55,122 nucleotides of DNA from a virus: IMG/VR virus record IMGVR_UViG_3300032285_003935, positions 1 through 55,122 of that record; one strand, given 5' to 3'. Of the stretch, positions 4,382-50,017 are shown piece after piece; within the stretch, counting starts at the first letter, position 1, and each line of letters starts with the position of its first letter. The notes beneath the pieces were generated by a model that had not been told where the DNA came from, made no database searches, and saw only the letters and a program-made list of their open reading frames with translations. The translations under genes were made by a program, and so were the position numbers.

Positions 4382-4906
4382 ATGAAAAAAATAGTTAAAT
4401 TGACTGAATCAGATTTAGTTAAAATCGTTAAAAGAGTTTTGAAAGAACAAGGAGTTATAGGAACATTAGGTTCAAGAAGCGCCTTCAATTTATCCAAGTC
4501 ATCACCTACCGAAGTACCTGCCGGTAGAACTCCACAAGTACAGGACGACCCAACAGGGACTATTACTGAATGCTATCAAAGAAATATAAACAATTTAGTA
4601 AATGCTTGTAAACGTAATGAATCAAAATACGTTCCTGATAAAGACGCAAAATATATTGCGGAGCAATTACGTGATGAAATGGAAGGATTGGGACTTTATC
4701 ATACAGATATTTATAGTACATTGGACTACCTTAAAAAGGATACCCCAAAATTCTGTAGAGTGTCAAATGCGTTTAATTTTAATAACGAAAATCTAGCTCA
4801 ATGGTTTAAAGACGAATTAACATTATTACCTGACTTAGTTTGGAGAAAACTTGAAAACCACGGTAGAAATTTAAACGTTGGTGACGCTTGCTCGACCGCT
4901 TCATAA
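4382..4906 (+). CDS. Putative capsid-targeted protein (LTE leader)
   Basis: A 174-residue protein with the leader MKKIVKLTESDL, then IVKRVLKE, and a predicted cut at E22|Q23. After the leader comes a polar Ser/Pro/Thr-rich linker (about residues 30-60) and then a mostly helical domain with four Cys residues (around 61, 74, 116 and 171). The function is not recognised. The late-type box TATTTATA (4370-4377) ends 4 bases before the ATG. Confidence 0.8.
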   Translation: MKKIVKLTESDLVKIVKRVLKEQGVIGTLGSRSAFNLSKSSPTEVPAGRTPQVQDDPTGTITECYQRNINNLVNACKRNESKYVPDKDAKYIAEQLRDEMEGLGLYHTDIYSTLDYLKKDTPKFCRVSNAFNFNNENLAQWFKDELTLLPDLVWRKLENHGRNLNVGDACSTAS

Positions 4907-10408: not shown

Positions 10409-11155
10409 ATGAGAAATTTGTTGACTGAAGTTAGTAAAATAAAATCAATGATGGGTTTAAAACCAAATATTAATGAGCAATCAGTTTTTGATGATGTTAA
10501 TAAAATTATGGGTTTTAAACCGTCAAATCAAGAACCAAATTTAATGGATAAATGGTCTTCTATGGGACAACCAAAAGACCAAATGAAACCAGATTCGGGA
10601 GGTGTTATTGATGCTGCTAAGAAAATGATGAAAACAAAAACACCAAATAGTGGTCAAAAACCTACAGGTGTTTCAAATAATCTTGTAAATTTTGTTGGTA
10701 ATATTGAGTTTTTTGTTCCTTGTGTTTATGATGATGCTAAAGGAGGTAAATGTGTTAGAGGTGAAGTTGATTGTTGTTTAAAAGGTAGAACACCGTCTGG
10801 AACACCGACAATTGGTTATGGTACGGTTTATTACCCTGATGGTAGAAAAGTATCGCCTAAAGACCCATCAATAACAAAAGATATAGCTAAAACGTATTTA
10901 AAAACTGCTTTAAATAAATTGGCAGGTAAGTTATTAGCAATATATCCTAATTTAAATCAAAACCAAGTTGACGCATTATCATCATTATGTTATCAAGTTG
11001 GATTTGCAGGTTGTACAACAAAGGCTCCAAAATTAAGCACTTCTTTAAAAATGAATCCTAATTCTAATTCAGTTAAAGTTAACTTTTTAGATTTTAGTCA
11101 CAGAGACAGAAGAGAAAAAGAATGGAAGATTTATAGTCAAGGAATTTATTCTTAA
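10409..11155 (+). CDS. Putative capsid-targeted T4-type lysozyme (GH24)
   Basis: A 248-residue protein. Residues 1-23 form a TEV-type leader (MRNLLTEVSKIKSMMGLKPN, then INE) with a predicted cut at E23|Q24. A low-complexity linker (residues 24-85) precedes a glycoside hydrolase family 24 domain, which cuts the peptidoglycan backbone. The catalytic set can be aligned with T4 lysozyme: Glu100 in NIEFF, Asp109 nine residues later as in T4, and the Thr of PTIGYGT (Thr134). About 19 extra residues with three Cys lie between Asp and Thr. NQVDALSSLCYQVG is the usual helix after the active site. There is no secretion signal, so it is more likely a virion-borne lysozyme than the lysis endolysin. Late-type box TATTTATC at 10398-10405. 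Confidence 0.88.
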   Translation: MRNLLTEVSKIKSMMGLKPNINEQSVFDDVNKIMGFKPSNQEPNLMDKWSSMGQPKDQMKPDSGGVIDAAKKMMKTKTPNSGQKPTGVSNNLVNFVGNIEFFVPCVYDDAKGGKCVRGEVDCCLKGRTPSGTPTIGYGTVYYPDGRKVSPKDPSITKDIAKTYLKTALNKLAGKLLAIYPNLNQNQVDALSSLCYQVGFAGCTTKAPKLSTSLKMNPNSNSVKVNFLDFSHRDRREKEWKIYSQGIYS

Positions 11156-16592: not shown

Positions 16593-16859
16593 ATGAAACC
16601 GTATAAAGATAGAAAACTAACAGAAACTTCAAAGATTAGAGTTTTTAAATTCGATGTTGATAGTGGTGAACTACAATGGCATCGTGATAGAGAAGATAGA
16701 TTGATTGAAGTAGTTCAGGGTGAAGGATGGAAATTCCAAATGGATAATCAATTACCAATAGAATTAACCGAAGGACAAGTATTATTAATTCCTGAAGGAA
16801 CTTATCATAGAATTTTTAAAGGAAAAACTGATTTGGAACTAAAGATTGATTTTATTTAG
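16593..16859 (+). CDS. Small cupin-domain protein
   Basis: An 88-residue single cupin fold: GELQWHRDREDRLIEVVQGEG is the first cupin motif (His31, Glu/Asp ligands) and GQVLLIPEGTYHRI the second (His near residue 73). Cupins bind a metal and small ligands or act as isomerases and dioxygenases; the specificity is unknown. The ATG at 16593 follows the previous stop by one base. It ends 8 bases inside the 3' end of the convergent gene. Confidence 0.8.
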   Translation: MKPYKDRKLTETSKIRVFKFDVDSGELQWHRDREDRLIEVVQGEGWKFQMDNQLPIELTEGQVLLIPEGTYHRIFKGKTDLELKIDFI

Positions 16860-17472
16860 TAATTCTATTAATAATCAATTCCATAAGTCGTTTTAAGAAA
16901 TTACCTGAAATTGTTATTAATCCAAACGCTGATAATGATTTAACCAACATTTCAGTATCTTTCATATTCCATATACCTTCAGAAATAGCGTCATATATCA
17001 TTGGTATAATCGGAACTAAAAATGCGTAACTTAACATATTTGTTACGGTAAATGCCGATAAATTCAAACTCTTTAAAAAACCTGCTAAAACAGTTTTAAG
17101 TTGATTGGCTTTGATTGCTCCCAATTTAAATGGTCCCTCAAGTCCATCTTCTTTAATCTTTTTAATTATTGATTTGGTAAAACTTCTTTCTTGGAAGAAT
17201 ATTACTGAAGCAATACCTGCAGCAATTAATGACGAATCTTTTTCTGTTAACTCAGGTACCTGACCATTTAACCATTGCATAACTGGACCCATAAACCCTC
17301 CGATTGATGCTCCCCATGTGAGCATCATCTTTAAGTTTATTGAAGCGTGTGATTTGGTGTCTTCAATAATCTTTTTTGTTAGTTCAACACCATCCTCTTG
17401 AACTTCTTTAATCCTATCATTGATTGCTTCAAGGATAATTTGTTTTTGAGATTCTTTAATTAGATATTTCAT
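16852..17472 (-). CDS. Putative capsid-targeted membrane protein
   Basis: A 206-residue protein beginning MKYLIKESQKQIILEAINDR, a leader variant with possible cuts at IKES or ILEA. It then has several hydrophobic segments (about residues 49-65, 81-93, 130-155 and 175-190), predicting three or four membrane helices. A packed or injected membrane protein could help form a DNA-entry channel; this is inference. Transcribed from the palindromic late-type promoter it shares with the gene at 17488. Confidence 0.75.
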   Translation of the reverse strand: MKYLIKESQKQIILEAINDRIKEVQEDGVELTKKIIEDTKSHASINLKMMLTWGASIGGFMGPVMQWLNGQVPELTEKDSSLIAAGIASVIFFQERSFTKSIIKKIKEDGLEGPFKLGAIKANQLKTVLAGFLKSLNLSAFTVTNMLSYAFLVPIIPMIYDAISEGIWNMKDTEMLVKSLSAFGLITISGNFLKRLMELIINRITK

Positions 17473-19737: not shown

Positions 19738-19998
19738 ATGGTACACGACGTTGATTACATAATTTCCCTATTTCAAAAATTAACAACATCTGATAAAAAC
19801 AGAGGTGATAAAAATGAACTTGGGGAACAAGACGCCGCAGCTGGCGGTGGTGGTGGAGCAACATCTAACACAAATAAAAGAGGTAGTAATTGGGATGAGT
19901 TATATGTTGTAACTCGTGGTAAGGCAAACATGTTAGGTAAGAAAGGTGAAAAATGGCAATCAGGTGTTAAACGTGGTGTTGGAAATCAAGTTTGGTAA
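19738..19998 (+). CDS. Hypothetical small Gly-rich protein
   Basis: An 86-residue protein: an N-terminal helix (MVHDVDYIISLFQKLTTSDK), an Ala/Gly-rich linker (residues 33-41) and a basic C-terminal part with Trp (GSNWDELYVVTRG...GNQVW). The late-type box TATTTATG (19725-19732) precedes it. It heads a run of four genes in which the next three are large putative cargo proteins. Confidence 0.7.
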   Translation: MVHDVDYIISLFQKLTTSDKNRGDKNELGEQDAAAGGGGGATSNTNKRGSNWDELYVVTRGKANMLGKKGEKWQSGVKRGVGNQVW

Positions 19999-20000
19999 AA

Positions 20001-21680
20001 ATGGATAGTAAAAAACAATTATTAGAAAGAGTTTTGTTATTAATGAAATATGATAACAAACAAACTTATAGTGAAAATAAAAAAAATGTTTTGATTGAAC
20101 AAAGTATGGGTGGCGCATTACTTCCACAAACGCAAGACAATGGAATGACAGCATCAGTTCATGAAATGAATAAGTGGAAACCTAAATTAAAAACATATAA
20201 ATCTTTTTGGGGTGAGAACATTGATTTACCTGAAAGTAGTAAAATTAAATATTTCAATCTTACAGAATTAAAAAAAAATAATTCTTATCCAGTGGATGGC
20301 GGCGATGAAATAGGTTTTTACGCTTATTTAGATTCATTAAAAAGTGTAAATCCTACTGTCTATAATATGGTTTATAAAAACGCTCAAACAAAATGGGCGA
20401 TGGAACCTGAAAAATTGAAAAATATTGGTACTATAAAATTTTATTATCCATCGGATAAAGCAATGAATTCATTATTTGCGTCAAATGAAATTTTCCAATT
20501 TACAATACCAAAAGGTACAATGATACCTTTTGACGAATCAGTTAAAGAAAATCCTGACGATTGGTTTTCAACAAGAAATCAAGGTGAAAGACCTTTGGAT
20601 AAAGATATTAGATTTTCACCGGTATCTCAACTTATACCTAATTTTGCAACAAAAGTACTTAATGGTGAAAATGATGGTATGTTTAATAATTGGACATACA
20701 ATACCGCATATTATACATCAGATTTAGACTCTGGAAAATTAGTAAGTTACGTCCCTGAACTTTGGATACAATATAAATCTCCGACTAAACTTTGGTGGGA
20801 TAAATACGGAGTTTGGGTTGAATTGGTTGGTACAGTTTTGATAACTATTTTATCTGAAGGACTACTATCCCCGGCAGCGATTTCGGTTTTAGGACTTGAA
20901 GGTGCGTTGGCATCAAACGCTGGTTTTATTTTGGATTTATTTTTTAATGGAATATTTAATTTAGGTATCGCAAAGATGCATTTTAATGCACATGATGATG
21001 CGTCTGGTTGGATGTCTATGGCTTTTTGTTTTTTACCTTTACTTCATAAGTATGGAGGAGCGGCAATACAAAAATATTTTGTTGGTCTTAATAAAGAGGC
21101 AGTATCATTGGCAAGTAAGGAAGTATTAGAAACATCAAGAGGATTAAACATAAGCTCAAAAGCAAGTATTGAAAAATGGTTTAAAGGTCTTTCCCCAACC
21201 ACACAAAAAGTTGTACAAAGTTACGCTAAAATACCTGCTAAAGAAATTGATACCGTCGCAAAACAAGTATTAGAAATTGGTAATAAATTGATGAAACAAG
21301 CAAGAAGGGCAAATCCACAATGGTTAACAAAACATATTTTTACATCTATCGGTAAAGGTCTTGGTAAGTTCGCGGCAACTATGACAGTTGATTTAGCTTT
21401 ACTTGAAACTTCATTTAAGACTATAGAAGCTGTGAATGGTAAACCGTTTAGTCCGGTAGAAAAACTTAATATTATTATTTATGTTTCAGGTTTAGCAAAT
21501 ACTCCCGAAGAATTTGATGAAGCATTACAACAGTTCTCTGAAGATGTGAAAAATGGGACTGTAACTACAGATGAATTAATTCAAATCGCCGACTATCAAC
21601 AATTACCACAAGACACCATAAATTCTTATATACAAACCATAGACAAAAATAATCCTGGATTTGAAGAATTTATTGACTAA
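20001..21680 (+). CDS. Large putative capsid-targeted protein with hydrophobic centre
   Basis: A 559-residue protein starting 2 bases after the previous stop. The leader begins MDSKKQLLERVLLLMKYDNK and reaches NVLIE|Q at about residues 33-34. A globular region follows (to about 255), then a strongly hydrophobic region (WVELVGTVLITILSEGLLS, then AGFILDLFFNGIFNLGI, about 262-320) and a helical C-terminal part. It matches no family I know. Its size, leader, hydrophobic core and tight linkage with two similar large proteins suggest an internal head protein ejected with DNA, perhaps part of a transmembrane conduit; this is inference. Confidence 0.8.
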   Translation: MDSKKQLLERVLLLMKYDNKQTYSENKKNVLIEQSMGGALLPQTQDNGMTASVHEMNKWKPKLKTYKSFWGENIDLPESSKIKYFNLTELKKNNSYPVDGGDEIGFYAYLDSLKSVNPTVYNMVYKNAQTKWAMEPEKLKNIGTIKFYYPSDKAMNSLFASNEIFQFTIPKGTMIPFDESVKENPDDWFSTRNQGERPLDKDIRFSPVSQLIPNFATKVLNGENDGMFNNWTYNTAYYTSDLDSGKLVSYVPELWIQYKSPTKLWWDKYGVWVELVGTVLITILSEGLLSPAAISVLGLEGALASNAGFILDLFFNGIFNLGIAKMHFNAHDDASGWMSMAFCFLPLLHKYGGAAIQKYFVGLNKEAVSLASKEVLETSRGLNISSKASIEKWFKGLSPTTQKVVQSYAKIPAKEIDTVAKQVLEIGNKLMKQARRANPQWLTKHIFTSIGKGLGKFAATMTVDLALLETSFKTIEAVNGKPFSPVEKLNIIIYVSGLANTPEEFDEALQQFSEDVKNGTVTTDELIQIADYQQLPQDTINSYIQTIDKNNPGFEEFID

Positions 21681-21706
21681 ACATAATATTTATAAAAAAA
21701 AAGTAT

Positions 21707-23047
21707 ATGAAACAAGAAATTTTATCAGAAGTTAATAGAATACATGAAATAATGGGTATTCTTAATGAAAATAAAGAAATTATTTTTGAAGCGGGAGGGC
21801 CAGGGCCTAAAAATCAAATTGTAACAAAGTTTTTTGAAATACTCGGTTTAGCAGCCGAAAAAGATTTAGATAAGAATTGGCAAGTGTTACAACAAAAAGT
21901 ATCTAGTGGTGCTGCAAGTCAGGAAGAAAGAGAAGCGGAAACAATTATTAAAGATTTCTTAAGAAGTAAACCTGATATTGGGGCACTCAATTCAAAAAGA
22001 TTTTCATTGGCTGTTGATAAATATGGTGATGACTTACTTGAAGCGTTTTATAAACAAGAAGAAGTTAGAGAGGCACTTTTAAAGGCATTTGAAAAGGCAA
22101 ATCCTGCATTTGAAAAAGTAAAAAATAGTTTATCAAGACCAGTTAAATTTGATAAAATGTACAAAATGTCGGATTTAGAAAAATGGAAAAAAAGTGCGAC
22201 TTTATCAATTGACGGAATGGCATCAGTTCCAAATTATCTAAAACCTGAATTACAAGAACAATTAGAAAAGAATTTTGAAGAATTATCTGTAGAACTATCT
22301 GAAAAAAATGCTCAAAGAATTGCTAATGCGGAAGCTCAACTTGTTGATTTAGAAAGTTATTTTGGAAGTGTTAACAGCGTACAAAAAGTTTTAAACTTAA
22401 CTAAAGAAGAATCTACAGAATTTTATAAAAAATTTAAACAAATTGATGAACTTATTAAAAGTTCAAAAAACACAATAGATAGTGAAGAATTTTTGACAAG
22501 AATTAATAACTTGAAACAAGCGGCGTCAGAAATATCTCCAAGTGATTTAAAAATAATTCAATCTAAGTTTAAAGGGGCAAAATGGCCTTCTTGGTTAAAA
22601 TCTAAAGACGGAACTTTAAGTTATTTAAAATTGGGTATTTTTGTATTTGCGGTATGTGGTGTTGGTGGTTATTTTACTGGTTTACCGTTGTGTGACAAAA
22701 TAGGTTACGCTGTAGGAGTGGTAATCCGTAAAACTTTTGATGGTGGTAAACAAGGGATGTCAGGTGGTGCGGAAGGTTTTAAATCATCAGGTGATAATAC
22801 TGGTAGTCAAAATCAACAAGGTGATGGTCAAAATTCTAACCAAACTTCAAACGGTCAAACTAAAGATACAATTAAAACATGGTTAACCGCAGATGCTAAT
22901 GGAGAACATGGTACCAATAAATGGGATATTAACACGTTAGGTGACATAATCTATGATGCATCAGCCACACCAAACAAAGCAATTGTTATTGTTAATAATA
23001 AACAATGGCCTATGACATATAGTAACAATACTTGGAATTGGGATTAA
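21707..23047 (+). CDS. Large putative capsid-targeted protein with one membrane segment
   Basis: A 446-residue protein. The leader MKQEILSEVNRIHEIMGILN, then EN, has a predicted cut at LNE|N (about residue 21) and a second at IFE|A (about 27). Residues 40-300 are helical and charged, resembling a long coiled-coil domain. One hydrophobic segment (YLKLGIFVFAVCGVGGYFTG, about 309-328) follows, then a Gly/Ser/Gln/Asn linker and a small C-terminal domain (KWDINTLGDIIYDASATPNK). Late-type box at 21687-21694. No known family. Confidence 0.8.
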   Translation: MKQEILSEVNRIHEIMGILNENKEIIFEAGGPGPKNQIVTKFFEILGLAAEKDLDKNWQVLQQKVSSGAASQEEREAETIIKDFLRSKPDIGALNSKRFSLAVDKYGDDLLEAFYKQEEVREALLKAFEKANPAFEKVKNSLSRPVKFDKMYKMSDLEKWKKSATLSIDGMASVPNYLKPELQEQLEKNFEELSVELSEKNAQRIANAEAQLVDLESYFGSVNSVQKVLNLTKEESTEFYKKFKQIDELIKSSKNTIDSEEFLTRINNLKQAASEISPSDLKIIQSKFKGAKWPSWLKSKDGTLSYLKLGIFVFAVCGVGGYFTGLPLCDKIGYAVGVVIRKTFDGGKQGMSGGAEGFKSSGDNTGSQNQQGDGQNSNQTSNGQTKDTIKTWLTADANGEHGTNKWDINTLGDIIYDASATPNKAIVIVNNKQWPMTYSNNTWNWD

Positions 23048-23060
23048 TTAAATAATTAAT

Positions 23061-24824
23061 ATGGAAGAAAATATAGATATATTAAATGAAATAGGTCCAG
23101 GAGGTTCGGGACCAGGAGGTCCAGGAGGTTTGGGCAGTTCAGGTAAAGGTCCGGGAGGTTCAGGTAGTTCAGGTAAAGGACCAGGAGGTTCGGGCAGTTC
23201 AGGTAAAGGTCCAGGAGGTTCAGGTAGTTCAGGTAAAGGTCCAGGAGGTTCGGGCAGTTCAGGTAAAGGTCCAGGAGGTTCAGATAATAAAAAAGAAGAT
23301 AAACCTAAAGCTGGTGGTGATAAAAAAGAAAACGAACCTAAAAAAGCTGAATTCCCAATTAATACTATTGATAGGTCAAATAAATTTAGAAAATGGTTAA
23401 AAAGTTTTCGTTATGGTTTTTTTAGTAAAAAATATATTAAAGACATTATTTCTGACATAAAAGAAGATGATAAATCCATTAAAGAAGCTTGGGAAGAATA
23501 TGGTAATGATTTTATTGAATTTTTACTTAACTCCCCTAACTCGGCTTTACAATCGTTAGGTAAACAAATTAAAGATGATAATGAAAATTGGTTAAAGACT
23601 GGTGAAGGGGTTGACGTTAGTTTTGAAAAAGCAATTGAGTCAGAAAAAAGAAAATGTGAACCTTGGACTTCAGGTAATTTATTTGAAAAAAAATATAGAA
23701 AAGAAGGAGTTGATACATTAAATCAAAAAGCTAGAGAATTTGTTGAATGGTCAGGTGAACAAGGTTGGTATGGTAACATAGTACCATCTGATTTTTGTGG
23801 ATTTGATGTTAATGATATTCCTTGGGATAATGATGTTTGGATAGATGAAGACAGTAAGGAACATCCAATTTATCAGCATCCAATTATTAGATTATTATCC
23901 TTACATAAAGTTTGGATGAGAGACGATATTACTCGTGTTGATAGACAAAGTGATTTATTTACTAAGTTTTTAAAAGATAGTGGTGAAGAAGTTACACCAT
24001 ATATTTCAGGTGGTAGAAGTGAAGAAGTAAAAACTAAAAATGTTAGACCTTCAGATACACCGGCTGACTCAAGTGCTGAAGTAATTTTATCCGCAGGAGC
24101 TAATAGAAATTTATGTGTTAATTTAAGAAACGCTTTAAAATCATCTTATGATAGAAGTGAAACAGTACAAAAAGCTATTCAAATGTGTAATTCAAAAAAT
24201 TCAAATTGGTTAAAGACAGATTTAGAAAGTAGAGTAAAAACTAAATTAAGAGTATATCAAGAAGGTAAAATGATTAAAGAAACTATTCAAAACAAATTAA
24301 AATTGAAGAAAAATGAAAAAAGTTTAATTTCATTATCTGAAGATTTTCAAAAACAAAACTTTAAAAAATTCTTTGACGGACTTAACAAATTTAGAAAAAC
24401 TAGAAATTTAAACGAAGCGACAAACCAAGAGTTTGAAAAATCGTTTGATGTTATTTTCCAAGGAAAAGAAACTGAATTTAAAAATAGAGCAATTGAATAT
24501 ATCTTAAACAAACTACAAGTTCAACCAACATCAGAAATGGGTAAAAACATAAAATCTGAATTGGATAAAGTTTCTGCTAAAGATATGTTTAGAAATGAAT
24601 ATGATGTTCCTGAAGCTATTGCAACTGCGGTTACAAAATCAACACAATCATCTTCAAAAGAAGAAGATGGATTAAAAGGTATTGTTTCACAGTCAATTAA
24701 GTTTGATGACAAACAACTTAAGCAAGGTGTAAGACAACACCTTCAAAATTATATTGAAGGTGTTAAAACAGACATCAAGTCACTTGAAGAAAAAATTAAA
24801 AAATCAATTATTGAAAATAATTAA
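23061..24824 (+). CDS. Large putative capsid-targeted protein with Gly-rich repeats
   Basis: A 587-residue protein. A very short leader, MEENIDILNE, would be cut at LNE|I (residue 10). Residues 12-75 are Gly-rich with five exact ten-residue repeats (GSSGKGPGGS), then a Lys/Glu linker, and from about residue 98 a long charged helical protein with no recognised domain. The repeat forms a flexible arm directly behind the cleavage site. It follows the gene at 21707 by 13 bases without its own promoter. The end overlaps the HNH gene by 4 bases. Confidence 0.8.
   Translation: MEENIDILNEIGPGGSGPGGPGGLGSSGKGPGGSGSSGKGPGGSGSSGKGPGGSGSSGKGPGGSGSSGKGPGGSDNKKEDKPKAGGDKKENEPKKAEFPINTIDRSNKFRKWLKSFRYGFFSKKYIKDIISDIKEDDKSIKEAWEEYGNDFIEFLLNSPNSALQSLGKQIKDDNENWLKTGEGVDVSFEKAIESEKRKCEPWTSGNLFEKKYRKEGVDTLNQKAREFVEWSGEQGWYGNIVPSDFCGFDVNDIPWDNDVWIDEDSKEHPIYQHPIIRLLSLHKVWMRDDITRVDRQSDLFTKFLKDSGEEVTPYISGGRSEEVKTKNVRPSDTPADSSAEVILSAGANRNLCVNLRNALKSSYDRSETVQKAIQMCNSKNSNWLKTDLESRVKTKLRVYQEGKMIKETIQNKLKLKKNEKSLISLSEDFQKQNFKKFFDGLNKFRKTRNLNEATNQEFEKSFDVIFQGKETEFKNRAIEYILNKLQVQPTSEMGKNIKSELDKVSAKDMFRNEYDVPEAIATAVTKSTQSSSKEEDGLKGIVSQSIKFDDKQLKQGVRQHLQNYIEGVKTDIKSLEEKIKKSIIENN
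23131..23280 (+). repeat. Five 30-base tandem repeats
   Basis: Five consecutive 30-base units, differing at a few third-codon positions, encode the Gly/Ser/Lys/Pro repeats of the protein at 23061-24824. Repeat number is likely to vary between related phages by slippage. Confidence 0.95.
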
Positions 24825-25309
24825 AAACTTTTTTGGAATTCAATCCAAACTTTCTGTAAAGACTGACCCACAGAATCCGAAAATATGGTAGGTTCTGTGG
24901 GTTTTTTCATTAACTTCATATTAGTCTCACTCAATAACTTATCTCCTTTCTTCGAATTACACGTTATACAACACGTAACTAGGTTATCCCATGTATTACC
25001 CCCACCTTTTGATTTAGGGACAATATGGTCGATTGTAAGGTCTTTTTTATTACCACAGTAAACACAAGTATTATGGTCACGTTTCATAATTCTATGACGA
25101 TTAACACGAATTCTTCTTCTGTTAAAAGAAACGTAATTTAAAAGACGAATAATTACGGGTCTAATAAATTTCATAACACCACATACGACTGGTTCGTCAG
25201 ATGATTTAACAATCTCTGCTTTTCCTTTATAGACTAGATTAAACCCACGATTAAATGATGTTACATTTAAGGGACTGTAATCTGAATTAAGTACCAATAT
25301 TCCACTCAT
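24821..25309 (-). CDS. HNH endonuclease
   Basis: A 162-residue protein with a complete HNH domain: CVYCGNKKDLTIDHIVPKSKGG, then NTWDNLVTCCITCNSKKGD. The two CxxC pairs bind structural zinc, and the DH...N residues form the beta-beta-alpha metal nuclease site. The N-terminal part (ILVLNSDYSPLNV, residues 4-16) is typical of the stand-alone HNH family common in bacteria and phages. It may be a free-standing homing nuclease, a packaging nuclease, or act against host or rival DNA; it is far from terminase here, so homing is the simplest reading. Confidence 0.93.
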   Translation of the reverse strand: MSGILVLNSDYSPLNVTSFNRGFNLVYKGKAEIVKSSDEPVVCGVMKFIRPVIIRLLNYVSFNRRRIRVNRHRIMKRDHNTCVYCGNKKDLTIDHIVPKSKGGGNTWDNLVTCCITCNSKKGDKLLSETNMKLMKKPTEPTIFSDSVGQSLQKVWIEFQKSF

Positions 25310-27417: not shown

Positions 27418-28287
27418 ATGAATAAAAAACAATTACACGAACAATCATTAAAAGAACTACGTAAGTTAGAAAATATCTTTGAAGATGAATCTATGGCAAG
27501 ACCGGTTGCGTCAAGTGTTAAAAATTACTTGGAAGGTTTAGGTTATGAAACAAAATCAACTATGGCCGAGGTTGGTGATTTAACACCTGAGTTTGGTGAT
27601 GTTTTGAAAAAGGCCGCAGCAACTTTAAAACAAGAATTACCTAATTTAAGAATAAAATTTGGTTCAGGAAGAGATAGGTTCCACAAAGATTACCCAACCA
27701 GCCGACATAATAAAGGAAACGCAATTGATGTTGTGTTTAAAGGTGTTGATAAAAAGAGTGACAAGGACTTAAATCAAATATCAACTGTTCTTTGTGCGTT
27801 AAGAAAGAAATATCCGGGGTTTACATTTATTGATGAATACAGACACGCAAGTAAATTTTCTACAGGTGTTCACTATCATTTATCTTGGTCAGATAATAAA
27901 AATGATGAAGGACATGGAACTGCTGAGTTTTGTTCATCGGTTAAAGATTTAGATTTAAGTCATATTAATTTTGATAAAATTGATTCAGAAATATCAGTAC
28001 AAGAACCAAGTAAATTAGATAAATTTTTAGATTACGTTGGGTTAGGGGACTTATCAGACGCAAAGTCTGGTGATAAAGAAAGTCAAAAAGGATTGGTGGA
28101 TAAGGCAAAGGAACTTTTTTCAGATGATGATGTAAAAGACGACAATGATGGGTTTGAAATATTTGGATATAAATTAGATGATATTTTAGATAAAGTTAAA
28201 AGTGTTATTCCACAATTTGAATCTGAACAAAATAAAAAAAATATTTTAGAAGATATTGAAAAAATTAAATCAAAAATGATTAAATAA
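27418..28287 (+). CDS. Putative capsid-associated M15-type peptidase (VanY-like)
   Basis: A 289-residue protein. The first 25 residues (MNKKQLHEQSLKELRKLENI, then FEDES) resemble the other leaders. Residues 60-160 form an M15-type D,D- or L,D-carboxypeptidase domain, with zinc ligands His97 and Asp104 in SRHNKGNAIDVVF and His154 in GVHYHLSW, the HxxxxxxD...H set of VanY-type enzymes. These cut peptide stems of peptidoglycan. The C-terminal third is acidic and Lys-rich with no known domain. No secretion signal is present, so entry or virion use is more likely than lysis from within. Confidence 0.88.
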   Translation: MNKKQLHEQSLKELRKLENIFEDESMARPVASSVKNYLEGLGYETKSTMAEVGDLTPEFGDVLKKAAATLKQELPNLRIKFGSGRDRFHKDYPTSRHNKGNAIDVVFKGVDKKSDKDLNQISTVLCALRKKYPGFTFIDEYRHASKFSTGVHYHLSWSDNKNDEGHGTAEFCSSVKDLDLSHINFDKIDSEISVQEPSKLDKFLDYVGLGDLSDAKSGDKESQKGLVDKAKELFSDDDVKDDNDGFEIFGYKLDDILDKVKSVIPQFESEQNKKNILEDIEKIKSKMIK

Positions 28288-28317: not shown

Positions 28318-28712
28318 TGGTGGAGATGCGGCGACTCGAACGCCGGTCCAAATATGTCGACCATAAAACACTACACGTTTAGGTCATTGTTTTTCTAAAC
28401 AATCCGAAACTTCACAATTCCCTTATTTTATAGTGGTTCGGTTTACTGAGAACTAATCCTCCACTTTGTTCCTTTTCGGGTAGAAACCACACCACAGTAC
28501 AAGCTTCTGTTGCAAGGTTATATGCTCACCGACCCCGTTGTATACTAATCTTAGATTAGGCTACAGTTACTTCTTCAGTACGGATTAAACCGAGTGTAGA
28601 AAGTTTTGCAATTGTGTTGCCGTTTGTGTTTTAAACCAGTTTTACAGGGTTAGTTTAGCCCCGACGTGCGTTTTATGACAGATTCATACCTGTCAAATCC
28701 AAAAACATCCCC
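28318..28712 (-). ncRNA. ssrA: tmRNA (transfer-messenger RNA)
   Basis: About 395 bases on the minus strand match a one-piece tmRNA. The tRNA-like ends pair: 5' GGGGATG with 3' CATCTCC (one G-U pair). The T-arm is GGCGTTCGAGTCGCC, and the 3' end ACCA is encoded. The 5' side has the conserved GGATTTGACAGG-type segment. The message part begins at a GGC resume codon (28619-28621) and runs 21 codons to TAA (28556-28558), starting GNTIA and ending EEVTVA. The stop sits in a small hairpin (CTAATC/GATTAG), as expected for helix 5. tmRNA rescues stalled ribosomes and tags the protein for proteolysis. This tag is longer than, and unlike, the usual ALAA-ending ones. Host-type promoter at 28735-28765. 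Confidence 0.93.
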
Positions 28713-28734
28713 ATATACTCAAAGAACTATGTTA

Positions 28735-28765
28735 CAAAGATATAAATATATTCTTCTTTTACCAA
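28735..28765 (-). promoter_or_regulatory. Host-type promoter for tmRNA
   Basis: On the minus strand TTG (complement of 28763-28765), a 20-base spacer and TATCTTTG (complement of 28735-28742). Transcription would begin slightly upstream of the mature 5' end at 28712, leaving a short leader for RNase P to remove. Confidence 0.7.
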
Positions 28766-28787
28766 GTATTTATTAAAAAAAAGTTTA

Positions 28788-29867
28788 ATGAGTCAACTTT
28801 ATCAAGCATTAAAGGATTTTACGGAAGATTTAGTTACTGCAAATTTTGTTAGGTACGAAGATGATGAAGATATTTTACGTATTACGAGAGTAAATGAAAA
28901 AAATCTTGGTAAATCTTTGGTTTATTTAACATTTGATACTAATGATTATGTTGACCTTTTCACTAGAAATAATGATGAAACTAATAACGGTTATTTAATT
29001 AGAGTCGCTTTCCAAGGGGGGTATTATGGAGGTAATGTTTTCGTTGATGATTATTCCATGGATTATGATTGGGATGAGGGTTATTTACTACATTATTTCA
29101 ATAATGAGAATTTAGATAGGGTCAAACAAATAGTAAAAATATTACGACCTAGTCTTTCCGTAGAAAATTTAACAGAACATAACGATAAAATTATTGAAAT
29201 TTGTAAGTGGTTAAAAAATGATTTTTCAAATGAGATAGATAGTATTATTTACGATTATTCAAGTGAATATGATGAAGCACTCGTTAAAGGATTAAGACAA
29301 TATGTCACATCTAAATTATGTAACGCTTTACTTCCTTTAAATATCTTTGAGAAAAAATGCACTAATCTCTACATGACAACTGTAGCAATTCTTTTAAATA
29401 CTTGGGATAAATCTGGTGAAGACAAAGACGCTAAACTTTCAGATATGTTAAAAACAAGTATTGACCAATTGGGAATACAGTTTGATGAAGATTTATATGA
29501 AGATTATTATGCTTATTTTGATAGTCAAAATTATGATGATGAAAGTTTTAACAGAAGTGTAACTTGGAATCTTGATAAAATCATGGAAAAAATTGAAGAT
29601 AGTGATAATATTGATTCTTATCGTAAAAACTCTGAAGTACTTGAAAAATTATCAAAGTTAAAGTATGGTGAATTTAATAAATGGTATGAATTTCCTTCAC
29701 AAAAAACATTTGGTGAAAAGACACCAAACAAATTCATAATTCGAGATGTTGATGACGGAAAAATACTTATTACATATAGTAATCATAGTAAAAATGAATT
29801 TAACCAAACCGTTAAAATTGATTATGATACTTTCTTAAATTTTTTATATCATCCTGAATTGTTTTAA
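28788..29867 (+). CDS. Hypothetical protein, 359 residues
   Basis: A soluble acidic protein starting MSQLYQALKDFTEDLVTANF. Residues 1-120 look beta-rich (VYLTFDTNDYVDLF, YLIRVAFQGGYYGGNVFVDD); residues 120-290 are helical, with many Asp and Tyr; the end is again beta-like (KFIIRDVDDGKILITYSN). No leader of the capsid-targeting kind and no known motif. Late-type box TATTTATT at 28767-28774. Divergent from tmRNA. Confidence 0.8.
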   Translation: MSQLYQALKDFTEDLVTANFVRYEDDEDILRITRVNEKNLGKSLVYLTFDTNDYVDLFTRNNDETNNGYLIRVAFQGGYYGGNVFVDDYSMDYDWDEGYLLHYFNNENLDRVKQIVKILRPSLSVENLTEHNDKIIEICKWLKNDFSNEIDSIIYDYSSEYDEALVKGLRQYVTSKLCNALLPLNIFEKKCTNLYMTTVAILLNTWDKSGEDKDAKLSDMLKTSIDQLGIQFDEDLYEDYYAYFDSQNYDDESFNRSVTWNLDKIMEKIEDSDNIDSYRKNSEVLEKLSKLKYGEFNKWYEFPSQKTFGEKTPNKFIIRDVDDGKILITYSNHSKNEFNQTVKIDYDTFLNFLYHPELF

Positions 29868-29894
29868 TTAAAAAATAGCTTATCTTTATGAGCT

Positions 29895-30713
29895 ATGATA
29901 GAAAATGTTGATTTCTTAAAAAAGGTATTGTCAATACCTACAAAATCATTTAAAGAAGATTTAATGATTGAATTTTTGGTTGAATACTTAACCGAAAAAA
30001 AACACACTTTTAAAGTTGATGACTTTGGAAATGTTTATGTAACAAAGGGTGAAATAAATGAGGGTGAATTTTACCCTTGTATTGTTGCCCATACCGATAC
30101 GGTGCATAAAATTGACACAATCAACATCCGTGAAGAACAACTTAAAGACTCAAAGGGTAATGTAAGTTTATCACTTAAAGCATATAACGACTTGGGTAAC
30201 CCTACAGGTATTGGTGGTGATGATAAGTGTGGGGTATTTGCTTGTCTTCAATTATTGGAAGTTTTTGATGTGATTAAAGTCGCTTTGTTTGTGTCTGAGG
30301 AAGTTGGTTGTTTGGGTTCAAAAGAAGCTGACCCTGAATTTTTTAGTAATGTGGGTTACGCAATTCAATTTGACGCTCCTCACGATTTTATGGTGACAGA
30401 ATATTGTTATGGTGTTAAAGTTTTTGAAACGGATTCTGAATTTGAGTCAAAGGCTAAAAAAGTTCTTTCTGAAGGTATGTTGTCTGAACCACAATATATG
30501 CAACATCCTTACACTGATGTTTGGCAACTACGTAAGAAGTTTGATTTCTCTTGTATTAATTTTTCAATCGGGTATCACAACTATCACACACCAAATGAAT
30601 ATGTTGTTGTTCATGAAGTTTTTGCTGGTATGAATACAGGTAAAAAAATGATTGAAGAACTTGGTAAACAGAAATACCAATTCATACACAAATCACAATT
30701 ATATAATTTCTAA
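29895..30713 (+). CDS. M20-family metallopeptidase, peptidase T-like
   Basis: A 272-residue protein with the di-zinc aminopeptidase motifs of family M20 (peptidase T): AHTDTVH (ligands His66 and Asp68), GIGGDDKCG (bridging Asp109), SEEVG (catalytic Glu135 and Glu136), Asp160 in QFD and a late His in NYHTPNEYV. The dimerisation domain usually inserted between the halves seems short or absent, since family members are often near 400 residues. Peptidase T frees the N-terminal residue of tripeptides. Promoter: TTG (29859-29861), 19-base spacer, TATCTTTA (29881-29888). It converges on the ClpC gene with a shared terminator. It could recycle peptides made by Clp proteases. Confidence 0.9.
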   Translation: MIENVDFLKKVLSIPTKSFKEDLMIEFLVEYLTEKKHTFKVDDFGNVYVTKGEINEGEFYPCIVAHTDTVHKIDTINIREEQLKDSKGNVSLSLKAYNDLGNPTGIGGDDKCGVFACLQLLEVFDVIKVALFVSEEVGCLGSKEADPEFFSNVGYAIQFDAPHDFMVTEYCYGVKVFETDSEFESKAKKVLSEGMLSEPQYMQHPYTDVWQLRKKFDFSCINFSIGYHNYHTPNEYVVVHEVFAGMNTGKKMIEELGKQKYQFIHKSQLYNF

Positions 30714-43168: not shown

Positions 43169-43888
43169 ATGCAAAATTATAAAATATTAGGTCCAAGAGA
43201 TACAGGAAAAGGTGTTTTAATTGAAATGGATGCAGGATTTGTTTCCCCAAGAGAAAAACATAATCAAACATTCTTACAAGAAAGTAAGGATTTTAAAGAT
43301 TATTCAAAACCATTTGAGTTTTATGCTGTTCTACAAAAATATAACACACCAAATAGAAATGGTAGATTATACCCTGAAAGAATTTTAAAAAGAGAAGCTG
43401 ATAACTATATAAAAAATTACATAGGTAAAAAAACATCGTTATCAGAACTTAATCACCCTGAATCTTCATTGATAGATTTAGATAGAGTATCACACATGAT
43501 TACAGAGATGTGGTGGGATGGTAATGTTCTATTAGGTAAACTATTACTTTTGACTTCACCAGGGTTCCATGAAAGAGGTATCGTATCAACAAAGGGTGAC
43601 CAAGCAGCAAACCTATTAAGATTAGGTGTAACGTTAGGTATATCATCAAGAGGGGTAGGTTCATTAAAAAAAGTGGGCGACCAAAATGAAGTACAAGATG
43701 ATTTTGAATTAATTTGTTTTGACCTTGTGTCGTCACCATCAACACCTGGAGCTTATTTATTTACTGAACCTGACGGTAGATTTGCCTTTGAAGAGAACCT
43801 AAAAGAAGAAAATGAAATGAAAGCTGCAAGAACAGTTAACAAATCGCTTGATTTAATGGGTAGACTTTCCGATTATTTAGGAAAATAA
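43169..43888 (+). CDS. Prohead core protease (gp21-like serine protease)
   Basis: A 239-residue protein of the herpesvirus-type/prohead protease superfamily close to T4 gp21 (212 residues). Catalytic His96 is in LSELNHPESS and Ser159 or Ser160 in LGISSRGVGS, with the TPNRNGRLYPERIL motif before them and the C-terminal PSTPGAY segment. In T4 this enzyme cuts scaffold, capsid protein and internal proteins after hydrophobic-x-Glu, then destroys itself. It would be the enzyme that processes the leaders described across this window. Late-type box at 43146-43153. Confidence 0.95.
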   Translation: MQNYKILGPRDTGKGVLIEMDAGFVSPREKHNQTFLQESKDFKDYSKPFEFYAVLQKYNTPNRNGRLYPERILKREADNYIKNYIGKKTSLSELNHPESSLIDLDRVSHMITEMWWDGNVLLGKLLLLTSPGFHERGIVSTKGDQAANLLRLGVTLGISSRGVGSLKKVGDQNEVQDDFELICFDLVSSPSTPGAYLFTEPDGRFAFEENLKEENEMKAARTVNKSLDLMGRLSDYLGK

Positions 43889-44227: not shown

Positions 44228-45622
44228 ATGGCAGAAAAAAACTTGGTTGAAGAAGCATTAATCCAAATACAAAATTTGGAAGAAGCTATCAATGAAAACG
44301 CAAAAGAAATACTTCATTCTACAATGAAAGAAGAAATTAGCGAATTAGTAAAAGAGTCTATGAAAAATGAGGCTGAAGAAGAAGATGAATTTGAAGTTGA
44401 AGACGAACTAGAGTCTGACGACGAATCGGAAGAAGAGGACGAATTTGAATTAGAAGACGAGTCTGAAGAAGACGAATCTGAAGAGGAAGACGACGAAGAT
44501 TCTGAAGAAATGTTTGACATTGATAATTTATCTGATGTAAGTGACGAGGATGAATTTGATTCTATGGCAGTGACTGATTTAACTGACAGTTCTATGGAAG
44601 AAGTTCTTAAAGCTTTCAAAGAAATGAAATCTGATGACAGTTTTGAAATTAAAAAAGAAGGTGATTTTATTCATTTAAGAGATGAAGATGATGAGTACCT
44701 TATTCAAACTGAATCTGAAGAGGAAGAGTATGAAGGTTGGAATGAAGAATCTGAAGAAGAAGAAGAATTAGACGAAATCGTTTACGAAATTGAAATGAGT
44801 GAAGAGGAAGAGGAAGAAGAGGAATACGAACTTGAAGAGGATTTCATATCTGAATCACAATTAGTATCATTATCAAAAGGTTTTACTAAGGAAATACATA
44901 AAGGAAAACCTGCAATGAAACCAAAAATTGGTAAAGATGCTAAAATTGGTGGAAATGCTAAAGACTACGGATGGCACAAAAACGCTTCTTTACCTAAAGG
45001 GTTTAAAGAAGATATGCCAAAAGCAAATCCTACAAAAGGTACTGGTAAACCTAAATTTGAGTTCAAAGAAGAAGCATCAATGGATACGGATAGACCTAAA
45101 AAATTCGCAACAAAAGAGGAAGCTAAAGAAGCTGCTCGTACTTACGGATTTGGTTCTAAAAAAGGACGTGGTTTAAGAAAAGGTGTTACACCTAACAGAA
45201 ACTTAACGTTTGAAAGCCGTGAAATTATGGAAGAAGTTGAAATGTTAAGAGCTAAAAATGAAGAATACAGAAAAGCATTGAATATGTTTAGAGATAAACT
45301 TAATGAAGTTGCGGTATTCAATTCGAATTTAGCATATGCTACAAGATTGTTCACTGAACACTCTACATCAAAGCAAGAAAAAATTAACATTTTAAGAAGA
45401 TTTGATACTGCTGACACTCTTAAAGAATCTAAAGCTCTTTATAAAACAATAAAAGACGAGTTAGGTGGTACTACCGCTAAAGCTCCGATGACAGAATCAA
45501 TCGAAAGAGTAATGGATAAAGTTCCTCAATCAGGTTCAGCTGTGAATTTGATTGAATCAAAAACTTATGAAAATCCTCAATTCTTAAGAATGAAAGACAT
45601 TATGTCAAAAATAATAAAATAA
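44228..45622 (+). CDS. Prohead scaffold/core protein (gp22-like)
   Basis: A 464-residue protein in the position of T4 gp22, just before the capsid gene. The N-terminal 55 residues are helical, with a potential INE|N site at about residue 20. Residues 55-210 are extremely acidic (Glu/Asp runs), followed by a basic, Gly/Lys-rich middle (residues 225-320) and a helical C-terminal part with a coiled coil (MEEVEMLRAKNEEYRKALNM). Such charge-segregated helical proteins form the removable core of the prohead. It is longer than T4 gp22 (269), mainly through the acidic and basic insertions. Confidence 0.88.
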   Translation: MAEKNLVEEALIQIQNLEEAINENAKEILHSTMKEEISELVKESMKNEAEEEDEFEVEDELESDDESEEEDEFELEDESEEDESEEEDDEDSEEMFDIDNLSDVSDEDEFDSMAVTDLTDSSMEEVLKAFKEMKSDDSFEIKKEGDFIHLRDEDDEYLIQTESEEEEYEGWNEESEEEEELDEIVYEIEMSEEEEEEEEYELEEDFISESQLVSLSKGFTKEIHKGKPAMKPKIGKDAKIGGNAKDYGWHKNASLPKGFKEDMPKANPTKGTGKPKFEFKEEASMDTDRPKKFATKEEAKEAARTYGFGSKKGRGLRKGVTPNRNLTFESREIMEEVEMLRAKNEEYRKALNMFRDKLNEVAVFNSNLAYATRLFTEHSTSKQEKINILRRFDTADTLKESKALYKTIKDELGGTTAKAPMTESIERVMDKVPQSGSAVNLIESKTYENPQFLRMKDIMSKIIK

Positions 45623-45652
45623 ACTAAAAAAATAAAAAACCTATAAAATAAA

Positions 45653-47536
45653 ATGGGAGCATTATTAGAAAGTGGATTAGTTGGTAACATTGGTCTTAAG
45701 CACTTGAAAGTTATCAAAGAAGACACTATAAACAAATGGGACAAATTAGGGTTCCTTGAAGGTCTTAGAGGCCACCTAAAAGAAAACGTTGCTCAGTTGT
45801 ATGAAAACCAAGCATCACACTTAATTAACGAAGCTACTTCTGACGGGTCATCAGGTTCTTTTGAAACTGTTGTTTTCCCAATCATCAGACGTGTGTTTTC
45901 TAAATTATTAGCTAACGAAATCGTATCTGTACAAGCTATGAACTTACCAATCGGTAAATTGTTCTACTTTGTACCTCAAATCCAAGGGTATACTGGTGCT
46001 ACTTCACAAATCATTAATGGTGGTAGTGTTCAAAACGACCATAGAGCACCTGTAGGTGGTCCTGGTAACTACCCTGGTGACCCTAACGCAGGTTACAATG
46101 ATTCAACTGCTTATCCTAAGAACCTTTACGATTTATTCTACGAAGGTACTGAGCCAGGTTTGAACCCATCAGGTCTTTTTGACTATTCAAAAGGAGCTTG
46201 GGCTTGGATGACAGGTAACACTACTCCTGTAGTTTGGTCAAACGGTAACTTAGTTGTTTCTGGATACGGTGGAGGTGAGTATAGAAAAATTCTTATCTCT
46301 TTAAGTGGTTTCACTAATGCTGGTGAAGGTAAATTAATTGGTCCTGACGGTCAAGAAATGGATACTGAAACATTCTTATCTGACTTGACATTATTACCTG
46401 CACAACCTGTAACAGGAACTCAAAGTTTATCTGCAGCAATTCAAGCGGCTGGTGGAAACTCAACTGTAACAACACCTCTTTTATTCCGTGTTGTTACACA
46501 GAAATATGGTAAAGGTATTGTACAATACGGTAGTTCAACTACTACTACTTGGCCTGGTTCTAACTTAGGTGGTGGTAACGGTGGTAACTATAACAACATC
46601 TGTTCTCAAGATGGTATCATCTACTTAGAAGTTGATTTACAAACTCCAGCATGTATTTCATGTGGAGCGTCAACTCCTGATGGATATACAGGTACAACTC
46701 TTGCTTCTAATACAATTCTTTCAGCAACTACTTCTAACCAAGCAATTGTTGCAGCTTGGAAGCGTTACAGAGAGTTAGAATTTGAAGACAGAATTGGTGA
46801 GGTTTCTTTTGACCTTCAGTCAGTAACAGTTTCTGTAACTGAAAGAAAGTTAAGAGCACAATGGTCACCAGAACTTGCTCAAGACGTTGCAGCGTTCCAC
46901 AACATCGATGCTGAAGCTGAATTAACAGCTTTATTGTCTGAACAAGTTGCGGCTGAAATTGACCGTGAAATCTTACGTGACTTACGTAAAGGTGCAGCGT
47001 GGACATTACGTTGGGATTACAACGGATGGAAGCGTCTGAATAACCAATCAACTCCTTATACTCAAAAGGACTGGAACCAAACGTTGATTACTGCAATCAA
47101 CCAAATTTCAGCTCAAATCCACAAATCTACTTTAAGAGGTGGAGCTAACTGGATTGTTGTTTCTTCTGAAATCAGTGCTATCTTTGATGACTTGGAATAC
47201 TTCCACGTATCAAACGCGGCTCCTGAGCAAGACCAATACAACATGGGTATTGAAAGAGTTGGTACTTTAAGTGGTCGTTACCAAGTATACCGTGACCCAT
47301 ACTTCCCACCAAACACTGTGTTGATTGGTCACAAAGGTACTTCGTTATTGGATACTGGATACATCTACGCTCCATACGTACCACTTCAATTAACTCCAAC
47401 AATGTATAACCCATTCAACTTTACTCCTATCAAGGGTATTATGACACGTTACGCTAAGAAGATGGTTAACAACCGTTTCTATGGACGTATCATCGTTGAT
47501 GGTGTTCGTACATTCGATTTGAATGAATTAAGATAA
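45653..47536 (+). CDS. Major capsid protein (gp23-like)
   Basis: A 627-residue HK97-fold capsid protein of T4 type. The propeptide (residues 1-60) ends SHLINE|ATSDG, the likely protease cut (E60|A61), at nearly the same place as in T4 gp23 (E65|A66). The region FPIIRRVFSKLLANEIVSVQAMNLPIGKLFYFVP is the classic gp23 N-arm/P-domain start; SVTVSERKLRAQWSPELAQDVAAFHNIDAEAELTALLSEQVAAEIDREILRDLRK-type sequence (about 400-450) and the C-terminal GRIIVDGVRTFDLNE are also typical. Residues 110-360 contain Gly/Thr/Asn-rich insertions, probably an outward domain. Codon use is richer in C-ending codons than neighbours, fitting high expression. Confidence 0.97.
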   Translation: MGALLESGLVGNIGLKHLKVIKEDTINKWDKLGFLEGLRGHLKENVAQLYENQASHLINEATSDGSSGSFETVVFPIIRRVFSKLLANEIVSVQAMNLPIGKLFYFVPQIQGYTGATSQIINGGSVQNDHRAPVGGPGNYPGDPNAGYNDSTAYPKNLYDLFYEGTEPGLNPSGLFDYSKGAWAWMTGNTTPVVWSNGNLVVSGYGGGEYRKILISLSGFTNAGEGKLIGPDGQEMDTETFLSDLTLLPAQPVTGTQSLSAAIQAAGGNSTVTTPLLFRVVTQKYGKGIVQYGSSTTTTWPGSNLGGGNGGNYNNICSQDGIIYLEVDLQTPACISCGASTPDGYTGTTLASNTILSATTSNQAIVAAWKRYRELEFEDRIGEVSFDLQSVTVSVTERKLRAQWSPELAQDVAAFHNIDAEAELTALLSEQVAAEIDREILRDLRKGAAWTLRWDYNGWKRLNNQSTPYTQKDWNQTLITAINQISAQIHKSTLRGGANWIVVSSEISAIFDDLEYFHVSNAAPEQDQYNMGIERVGTLSGRYQVYRDPYFPPNTVLIGHKGTSLLDTGYIYAPYVPLQLTPTMYNPFNFTPIKGIMTRYAKKMVNNRFYGRIIVDGVRTFDLNELR

Positions 47537-47554
47537 TCTATCTTAATGTAGATA

Positions 47555-47585
47555 AAAAAAGGTCAGAGAAATCTGACCTTTTTTA
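47555..47585. terminator. Bidirectional terminator after the capsid gene
   Basis: AAAAAGGTCAGA and TCTGACCTTTTT form a 12-base stem around gaaa. It also serves the convergent gene ending at 47583. Confidence 0.92.
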
Positions 47586-47837
47586 TTTTTTAATAATTCT
47601 TAAGGATTTTGATATTACTTCAGATTCCAATAAAGTGAACGCTCCACGTTTATACGCTGCAACAATTGCTTGTATAAGACATTGATTAGCTTCAATTTCG
47701 GTTAGATTATTAATAAAATTATTTAAATCTTCTTCAGAATTATATTGTATGGTATCAAAAATACTTTCAGATGATGATAATGAGTTTAATTTGTCAATTA
47801 TTTCTTGATTTAAACTGTCCTCTTCTAAATGTTCCAT
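47583..47837 (-). CDS. Hypothetical small helical protein
   Basis: An 84-residue acidic, helical protein (MEHLEEDSLNQEIIDKLNSL...) ending in a basic stretch (ISKSLRIIKK). The middle, EANQCLIQAIVAAYKRGAF, is the best-defined helix. No known family. Divergent from the gene at 47880. Confidence 0.7.
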   Translation of the reverse strand: MEHLEEDSLNQEIIDKLNSLSSSESIFDTIQYNSEEDLNNFINNLTEIEANQCLIQAIVAAYKRGAFTLLESEVISKSLRIIKK

Positions 47838-47879
47838 AGTGTGATATATTTATATTAAAGATAGTAAAAAAAAATCTAT

Positions 47880-48845: not shown

Positions 48846-49087
48846 TAAATACTTTTACCAACTCTGATACCTGGTTTTAAAGGTTCATATGTTCTTTCAG
48901 GTCTTGAATATTGGCCTGTACTAAATTCAGAATTTAATGCTTCTAAAGCACCTCTATATGCACCTGAATCATCAGATAACAATCTATCAATTACATCCTG
49001 AATTAAACTTCTATCTAATCTTCCGTATTCAGGTTCTTGTGACATTTCTTTTATTGCCTTTTTAATTTGACTATTTAATTTTGACAT
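48842..49087 (-). CDS. Small protein with leader-like N terminus
   Basis: An 81-residue protein starting MSKLNSQIKKAIKEMSQEPE, close to the MKNLNSVIKKVLKEQSE start of the protein encoded at 49561-50016. After the possible cut IKE|M comes a charged region (LDRSLIQDVIDRLLSDDSGA) and a Pro/Tyr-rich tail (YEPLKPGIRVGKSIY). The tail motif recalls the LRPGLRLWDKEA part of the neighbouring protein at 47880. Its end overlaps that gene by 4 bases. Confidence 0.75.
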   Translation of the reverse strand: MSKLNSQIKKAIKEMSQEPEYGRLDRSLIQDVIDRLLSDDSGAYRGALEALNSEFSTGQYSRPERTYEPLKPGIRVGKSIY

Positions 49088-49097
49088 GACTTTAATA

Positions 49098-49502: not shown

Positions 49503-49560
49503 GTCATTTATGATTTGACTACAAATATACTATGATTTTTTAATAATTCAAAATTTTTGA

Positions 49561-50016: not shown

Positions 50017-50017
50017 A

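Follow-up and report, generated by a model that had tools for sequence, protein, structure and literature searches.

Three Adjacent Leader-Bearing Genes of a T4-Type Virus Encode Predicted Head-Packaged Candidate Ejection Proteins

Gene Organization of the P1-P3 Locus

The window analyzed in this study comprises the 55,122 nucleotides of the IMG/VR record IMGVR_UViG_3300032285_003935, a 55-kb fragment of an uncultured virus. It carries T4-type head genes encoding a terminase (37956), a portal protein (39863), a gp21-type protease (43169) and a capsid protein (45653). Three consecutive genes, named P1, P2 and P3 in the following, lie with all their parts on the plus strand. P1 (20001..21680) encodes a protein of 559 amino acids with a leader, a hypervariable N-terminal half, a conserved hydrophobic hairpin and a helical C-terminal half. 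The P2 protein (21707..23047, 446 amino acids) consists of a leader, a variable middle, a single hydrophobic segment and a short C-terminal part. P3 (23061..24824, 587 amino acids) possesses a short leader, a repetitive arm, a Cys-containing middle and a conserved helical C-terminal domain, and has no transmembrane (TM) segment. The gaps are 26 nt between P1 and P2 and 13 nt between P2 and P3. A first-pass annotation had described an operon of three giant proteins. The three open reading frames (ORFs) were indeed found one after the other on one strand with the claimed lengths. However, the proteins are of medium size for a phage, and the co-directional run is longer, with genes at 18891, 19360 and 19738 directly upstream. 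A scan for promoters and terminators yielded no signal better than that of shuffled sequences.

The gene at 19738..19998 (plus strand) encodes a small protein of 86 amino acids with W/RGxAN repeats and a predicted site LGE/Q (slashes mark predicted cuts). The E and the Q of this site were invariant in the alignment of five relatives. This gene served as the marker of the slot that holds P1-P3. At the other end an HNH endonuclease-like gene on the minus strand (24821..25309) closes the slot in most close relatives.

Leaders with Predicted Head-Protease Sites

Each of the three proteins starts with a charged, amphipathic N-terminus ending in an (I/L)xE site, namely MDSKKQLLERVLLLMKYDNKQTYSENKKNVLIE/Q in P1, MKQEILSEVNRIHEIMGILNENKEIIFE/A in P2 and MEENIDILNE/IG in P3. 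Cleavage by a gp21-type protease is predicted after E33 of P1 (leader residues 1-33, 20001..20099), after E28 of P2 (residues 1-28, 21707..21790) and after E10 of P3 (23061..23090). Among 33 aligned P1 proteins L13, Y17, T22, E25, N26 and E33 were invariant, and Q34 was present in 97%. The 29 aligned P2 proteins had M1, R11 and E28 as their only invariant leader residues. At the position of ILNE10 of P3 the relatives showed MKKIILE/Q, MNLNNKILLE/Q and similar sequences. The mean fraction of the majority residue was 0.67 for the leader versus 0.29 for the mature part of P1 and 0.57 versus 0.25 for P2, where the values for the mature parts are rough because these parts align poorly. The leaders, including the final Glu, are nearly the sole conserved part of P1 and P2. 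The earlier assignment of a different leader type to each protein did not hold. The P2 leader of a relative (G028) was matched by both leader profiles; therefore, the leaders of P1 and P2 represent variants of a single type, while that of P3 is shorter and has the same end. The P1-leader profile matched 75 ORFs in slot 1 and few others, nearly all of which encode equivalent proteins. Overall, the leader profiles were almost exclusive to slot proteins and an M23/M15 hydrolase.

The gp21-type prohead protease is encoded at 43169..43888 on the plus strand (Pfam Peptidase_S77, 1.7e-26; PHROG head maturation protease, 7.8e-44). The gp23-type major capsid protein (45653..47536, plus strand; PHROG, 3.6e-66) carries a propeptide ending in LINE60/A. 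LINE60 was invariant in all capsid relatives displayed, followed by A and once by S. Among 706 ORFs of the lineage (I/L)xE was 2-3 times more common at residues 6-10 and 21-25 than in the protein bodies. In a related genome the enrichment was greater for the part resembling the window than for the tail region (p = 0.001). In T4 a short leader is cut by gp21, and Alt is cut at ITE-6 and LTE-619 (PMC5694885). Foreign proteins can be delivered to the core by the capsid-targeting sequence (CTS) of T4 internal proteins (PMC9958956). Two features of the T4-type CTS-bearing proteins, a leader with a gp21 site and an encoded gp21-type protease, are present here. The P1-P3 leaders are likely to be T4-type capsid-targeting propeptides, and there is strong reason to predict that the protease encoded at 43169 would cut them.

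Apparent Exchange of Protein Bodies behind the Leaders

A close relative, G033 (locus L138), has a genome of 242 kb with a tail sheath gene, and most of its proteins share 85-98% identity with their counterparts in the window. This also holds for the proteins flanking P1-P3. In contrast, P1 could be aligned with its G033 counterpart at residues 5-38 only and P2 at residues 374-446 only, and P3 was 90% identical from residue 68 on. At the DNA level the homology to L138 stopped at 20091, close to the end of the P1 leader at 20099, reappeared as an island at the P2 start (21686-21760) and resumed at 22848. The loci L129 and L145 exhibited the same pattern with slightly different edges. The C-terminal part of P2 (residues 374-446, 22826..23044) showed 75-77% identity to G033 P2, the rest being unalignable, and was kept in relatives with a different P2 body. 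Since the homology stops at the P1 leader and returns for the P2 leader and then for the P2 C-terminus and P3, the mature parts appear to have been swapped as modules. Thus, we infer that cargo bodies were exchanged behind constant leaders. The bodies of P1, P2 and P3 are mosaic relative to one another. When the co-evolution of P1 with P2 was tested given P3, the partial correlations were alike for all pairs (0.31-0.36), and therefore no special P1-P2 pairing can be claimed. Elsewhere in the window, the best match of the gene at 4382-4906 in G033 covers the leader only (residues 1-22, end ...VLKE), possibly another case of a body swapped behind a constant leader.

Conservation of the Three-Gene Slot

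Relatives were reached via the capsid protein and via the small upstream gene at 19738. The profile of the latter's product fetched 80 syntenic loci independently of P1-P3; these are partly redundant, several being near-identical contigs. Wherever a locus was long enough, slot proteins were encoded 3' of the 19738 homologue on the same strand, usually three of them. P1 orthologues occupy slot 1 in about 57 distinct loci. The P1-hairpin profile matched 49 slot-1 ORFs and six others, including the P1 equivalents in G003, G033, G009 and G017, and was specific to P1. The profile of the P3 C-terminal domain matched 36 slot-3 ORFs. The slot holds three adjacent genes which vary strongly relative to other virion genes, as do the ejection-protein loci of the T7/P22 type.

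A protein encoded in slot 1 of G017 (28346-29914) contains a peptidoglycan (PG)-binding domain and carries a P1-leader-like segment at its C-terminus (ESLNTALLYMNYDMNKTLTENKNIILKK), which is perhaps a scar of cargo exchange. The P1-like protein of this genome is encoded elsewhere, at 21803.

Searched directly, viral contigs and phages contained no match to P1, and phages none to P3. Of P1, P2 and P3, single-sequence searches of 32 related records recovered nothing but the leader of P1 and the C-terminus of P3, both in one record. Terminase and capsid protein are remote from those of isolates, with 29% (terminase) and 41% (capsid) identity to Flavobacterium phage immuto. This phage, the best isolate by terminase coverage, possesses few leader-like N-termini, and a pattern scan of its first 150 kb revealed no P1- or P2-type leader. 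Moraphages, for which Bacteroidota hosts have been predicted, share size, aquatic origin and the core genes for ClpA, prohead protease and portal with the window (PMC12619734). Because of these common features the window probably derives from a moraphage or close kin.

Hydrophobic Segments and Domains

Hydrophobic 19-mers were located at residues 271-289 and 293-311 of P1, within the hairpin region (residues 258-350, 20772..21050), and at residues 311-329 of P2 (22637..22693). Most close P2 proteins possess an equivalent segment at around residue 300. A 19-mer with a mean Kyte-Doolittle value of at least 1.5 was taken as TM-like, redundancy was removed, and other large proteins served as background. 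Such a segment was present in 27 of 32 P1 (p = 5e-15), 21 of 37 P2 (p = 9e-8) and 1 of 18 P3 proteins (p = 0.9) versus 17 of 137 background proteins. The membrane-like segments which had been noted for the first two proteins are real, and their presence is conserved. With putative membrane elements in P1 and P2, the set resembles the T7/P22-type ejection proteins, two of three of which contain such elements.

The Gly-rich arm of P3, also noted before, is a genuine tandem array (23117..23283; TRF, period 30, 5.5 copies). However, it is restricted to this phage and its nearest relatives; the P3 arms of other relatives contain different repeats or none. Cys199 of P3 was found in 24 of 24 homologues and Cys246 in 23 of 24. 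The C-terminal domain (residues 391-587, 24231..24821) showed the highest conservation within P3 with a majority fraction of 0.45-0.60.

Pfam and PHROG searches with P1-P3 and their families assigned no function to the proteins of the window and recognized no enzyme domain. Profiles run against the PDB sequences gave chance-level matches only. The mature P1-P3 of the window matched none of the known internal proteins in Pfam, PHROG or PDB. Consequently, we propose the same targeting mechanism and not a common descent of the bodies.

Peptidoglycan-Related Domains in and beside the Slot

The domain PG_binding_1 was detected in slot proteins of two relatives, G017 and L176, and also in a single P1 from the family set, probably L168 as judged by its motif. 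Canonical PG-binding motifs were present in five more slot-1 proteins (L177, L179, L188, L189 and L195). The slot proteins of relatives thus contain PG-binding and not hydrolase domains, P1-P3 of the window contain neither, and the leader-bearing hydrolases are encoded by separate genes. One of these (10409..11155, plus strand) encodes a lysozyme whose leader, MRNLLTEVSKIKSMMGLKPNINE/Q, is of this type as well (Pfam Phage_lysozyme, 5.8e-11; PHROG endolysin, 1.6e-14). Another (27418..28287, plus strand) encodes a probable leader-bearing M15-type peptidase. The match of the window copy was weak; the syntenic G003 gene encodes a leader-M23-VanY protein (VanY 6.8e-23, M23 9.7e-23) which is matched by the P2-leader profile. 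The GH19/PG-binding endolysin of G033 has no leader, as expected if leaders mark packaged enzymes.

Interpretation and Alternative Explanations

On balance we lean towards the view that P1-P3 are internal head proteins which are ejected and act in the host envelope similarly to gp14/gp15/gp16 of T7. The leaders would bring the proteins into the prohead core, and the gp21-type protease would then cut after the (I/L)xE site. Mature P1-P3 would travel in the head and be expelled through the tail together with the DNA. P1 with its hydrophobic hairpin and P2 with its single hydrophobic segment may then insert into the host envelope, and P3, which lacks membrane segments, may help to open or line the route together with the leader-bearing peptidoglycan hydrolases, like T7 gp14/15/16. 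Predicted head packaging and cleavage are well supported by the leaders and their sites. Ejection into the host appears likely, and P1 and P2 probably enter the host envelope along with the DNA since they combine a removable head tag, membrane segments and exchanged bodies. Assembly of P1-P3 into one trans-envelope complex is plausible by analogy. The bolder proposal, a three-gene, head-packaged and protease-activated ejectosome in a T4-type contractile jumbo lineage, forming a T7-like conduit with bodies exchanged at leader boundaries, is tentative and rather doubtful.

Several points weigh against P1-P3 being ejected proteins of the gp14/15/16 kind. No isolate of the phage collection possessed P1 or P3, and no virion proteomics for the lineage of the window was found in the literature. 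The hydrophobicity was scored by a simple index. AlphaFold models of P1 and P3 were weak (pLDDT 48.8 and 60.7), the low-confidence P1 model being helical from residue 263; Foldseek was uninformative, and no ejection-protein fold was matched. TMP_2, a Pfam tape-measure family, gave weak matches in 2 of 33 P1 proteins (best E 2e-5). A contractile-tail phage should be able to do without a conduit, and the hypervariability of P1 and P2 would fit injected anti-host effectors equally well. P1-P3 would then be packaged and ejected but act separately, like T4 IPI and Alt, and the hairpin would only aid entry into or crossing of the inner membrane. The exchange of bodies among close relatives is reminiscent of an arms race, and the hairpin in the L174 and G009 sequences presumably resembles the hydrophobic segments which precede toxin domains in polymorphic toxins. 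Nevertheless, the three-gene slot and the hairpin have persisted despite great divergence, the peptidoglycan-binding modules point to the envelope, and the lack of a recognizable enzyme domain in P1-P3 also speaks against effectors, which we consider a serious but improbable explanation.

Alternatively, P1-P3 could be structural core or inner-body proteins which are processed with the head and stay inside. Leaders for prohead targeting fit this role, and T4 gp67/gp68 and SPN3US gp243 have roles in assembly (PMC9958956, PMC5694885). It is nevertheless unlikely, as whole-body changes are unexpected of assembly proteins among relatives with about 90% identical head genes, and the TM segments and PG-binding domains would be left unexplained. 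The TMP_2 matches and the failure to find a tape measure in moraphages, which are probable relatives (PMC12619734), would fit P1, with P2, being a tape-measure or tail-tip protein. However, the length of P1 varies widely, from 559 to 673 amino acids between two phages whose other proteins are mostly 85-98% identical, which would be unusual for a tail ruler. The P1 leader carries a head-protease site, and the slot belongs to the head-gene part of the genome, with sheath and tube encoded at a great distance from it in the 242-kb relative; we give this assignment very little credence. Equally remote is the idea that the leaders are uncut membrane, tail or other targeting signals and not propeptides. 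The (I/L)xE motif is short and often met by chance, and cleavage is a prediction here. Yet in P1 and P2 the final Glu never changes although the following residues vary, the homology stops near this Glu, and the same site is found in the capsid protein of this phage.

Comparison with Known Systems

P1-P3 share with T4 IPI/IPII/IPIII and Alt a short N-terminal leader ending in (I/L)xE, a gp21-type protease and the expected head location and ejection. They differ in the longer leaders of P1 and P2 (28-33 amino acids), in bodies much larger than those of the IPs, in TM-like segments, PG-binding relatives and a three-gene slot with exchanged bodies, and are not related to them in sequence. The first-pass annotation had stated that an ejected trans-envelope complex is not known for T4-type phages. 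Two aspects must be separated here: internal proteins (IPs, Alt) are ejected by T4, but an ejected trans-envelope conduit was not described in the T4 literature surveyed.

The analogy to short-tailed phages, drawn in the first-pass annotation, held better than expected, namely for variability and for TM segments in two of three proteins, and the leaders provide a further argument that was not raised there. T7 gp14/gp15/gp16, as well as P22 gp7/16/20 and DEV gp71-73, are encoded by three neighbouring genes, two products being membrane-spanning and one not, with extreme variability and peptidoglycan-acting modules in the set. According to a review, ejection proteins are marked by very low sequence conservation, by membrane-spanning elements in two members of the trio and by peptidoglycan-hydrolase domains which swap between components (PMC8954989). 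The third feature is only approached, because the slot has binding domains and the hydrolases lie beside it, which makes the match looser. In contrast to the T7 proteins, P1-P3 belong to a contractile-tail T4-type phage, carry head-protease leaders and show no detectable homology.

SPN3US and phiKZ, too, are jumbo myoviruses in which numerous internal head proteins are processed and enter the host; for SPN3US such entry has been proposed for many head proteins. The site differs in SPN3US, which uses AxE with most propeptides of 111-254 amino acids, compared to (I/L)xE and about 10-33 amino acids in the window. The cargo proteins C1/C2 of the Bacteroidota phage phiCrAss001 are stored in the head and ejected, one has a predicted TM helix, and a channel was proposed. 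This phage is, however, a short-tailed crassvirus for which no T4-type protease leader was described, and no sequence relation was found. With phiCrAss001 and DEV, similar proposals have been made for Bacteroidota and N4-type phages.

To our knowledge, there is still no good explanation of how T4-type DNA passes the inner membrane once the tube has pierced the outer layers. Since the jumbo lineage is widespread, a conserved set of predicted head-packaged proteins of this lineage, two of them with membrane segments, would provide candidates for this step. Ejection of envelope-acting proteins is known for short-tailed viruses and not shown for the T4 type. The leaders would be a readable label by which head cargo of uncultured phages becomes predictable from the genome; among the enzymes predicted in this way are lysozymes and M23/M15 peptidases as well as the polyphosphate kinase of one relative. 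Bodies exchanged behind a constant leader suggest how phages could trade delivered proteins.

Other Predicted Head Cargo and Neighbouring Genes

Between 609 and 12000 the leader MKK..RLTE.EL..IIKRVI.E or MKYIITES recurs in many small plus-strand genes with otherwise different bodies, which suggests a large set of predicted head cargo. A leader-bearing protein of G033 (227409; locus L219:5348-7132) consists of polyphosphate kinase 2 (PPK2, 1.7e-70) fused to a lysozyme domain. Its equivalent in the window, the lysozyme encoded at 10409, has leader and lysozyme domain without PPK2. The minus-strand gene at 16852-17472 encodes a protein of 206 amino acids which begins with a leader-like sequence (MKYLIKESQKQIILE/A) and contains hydrophobic stretches. 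It is conserved in G003, G017, G025 and G028 and is a candidate for another membrane cargo.

A tmRNA gene with the tag AKLSTLGLIRTEEVTVA was found on the minus strand at 28318-28712, not far from a tRNA-Arg gene (25848). In G003 (45237-50900; loci L086 and L087) the gene for the ClpA-like ATPase is split, with an intein-like insertion just before the P-loop.

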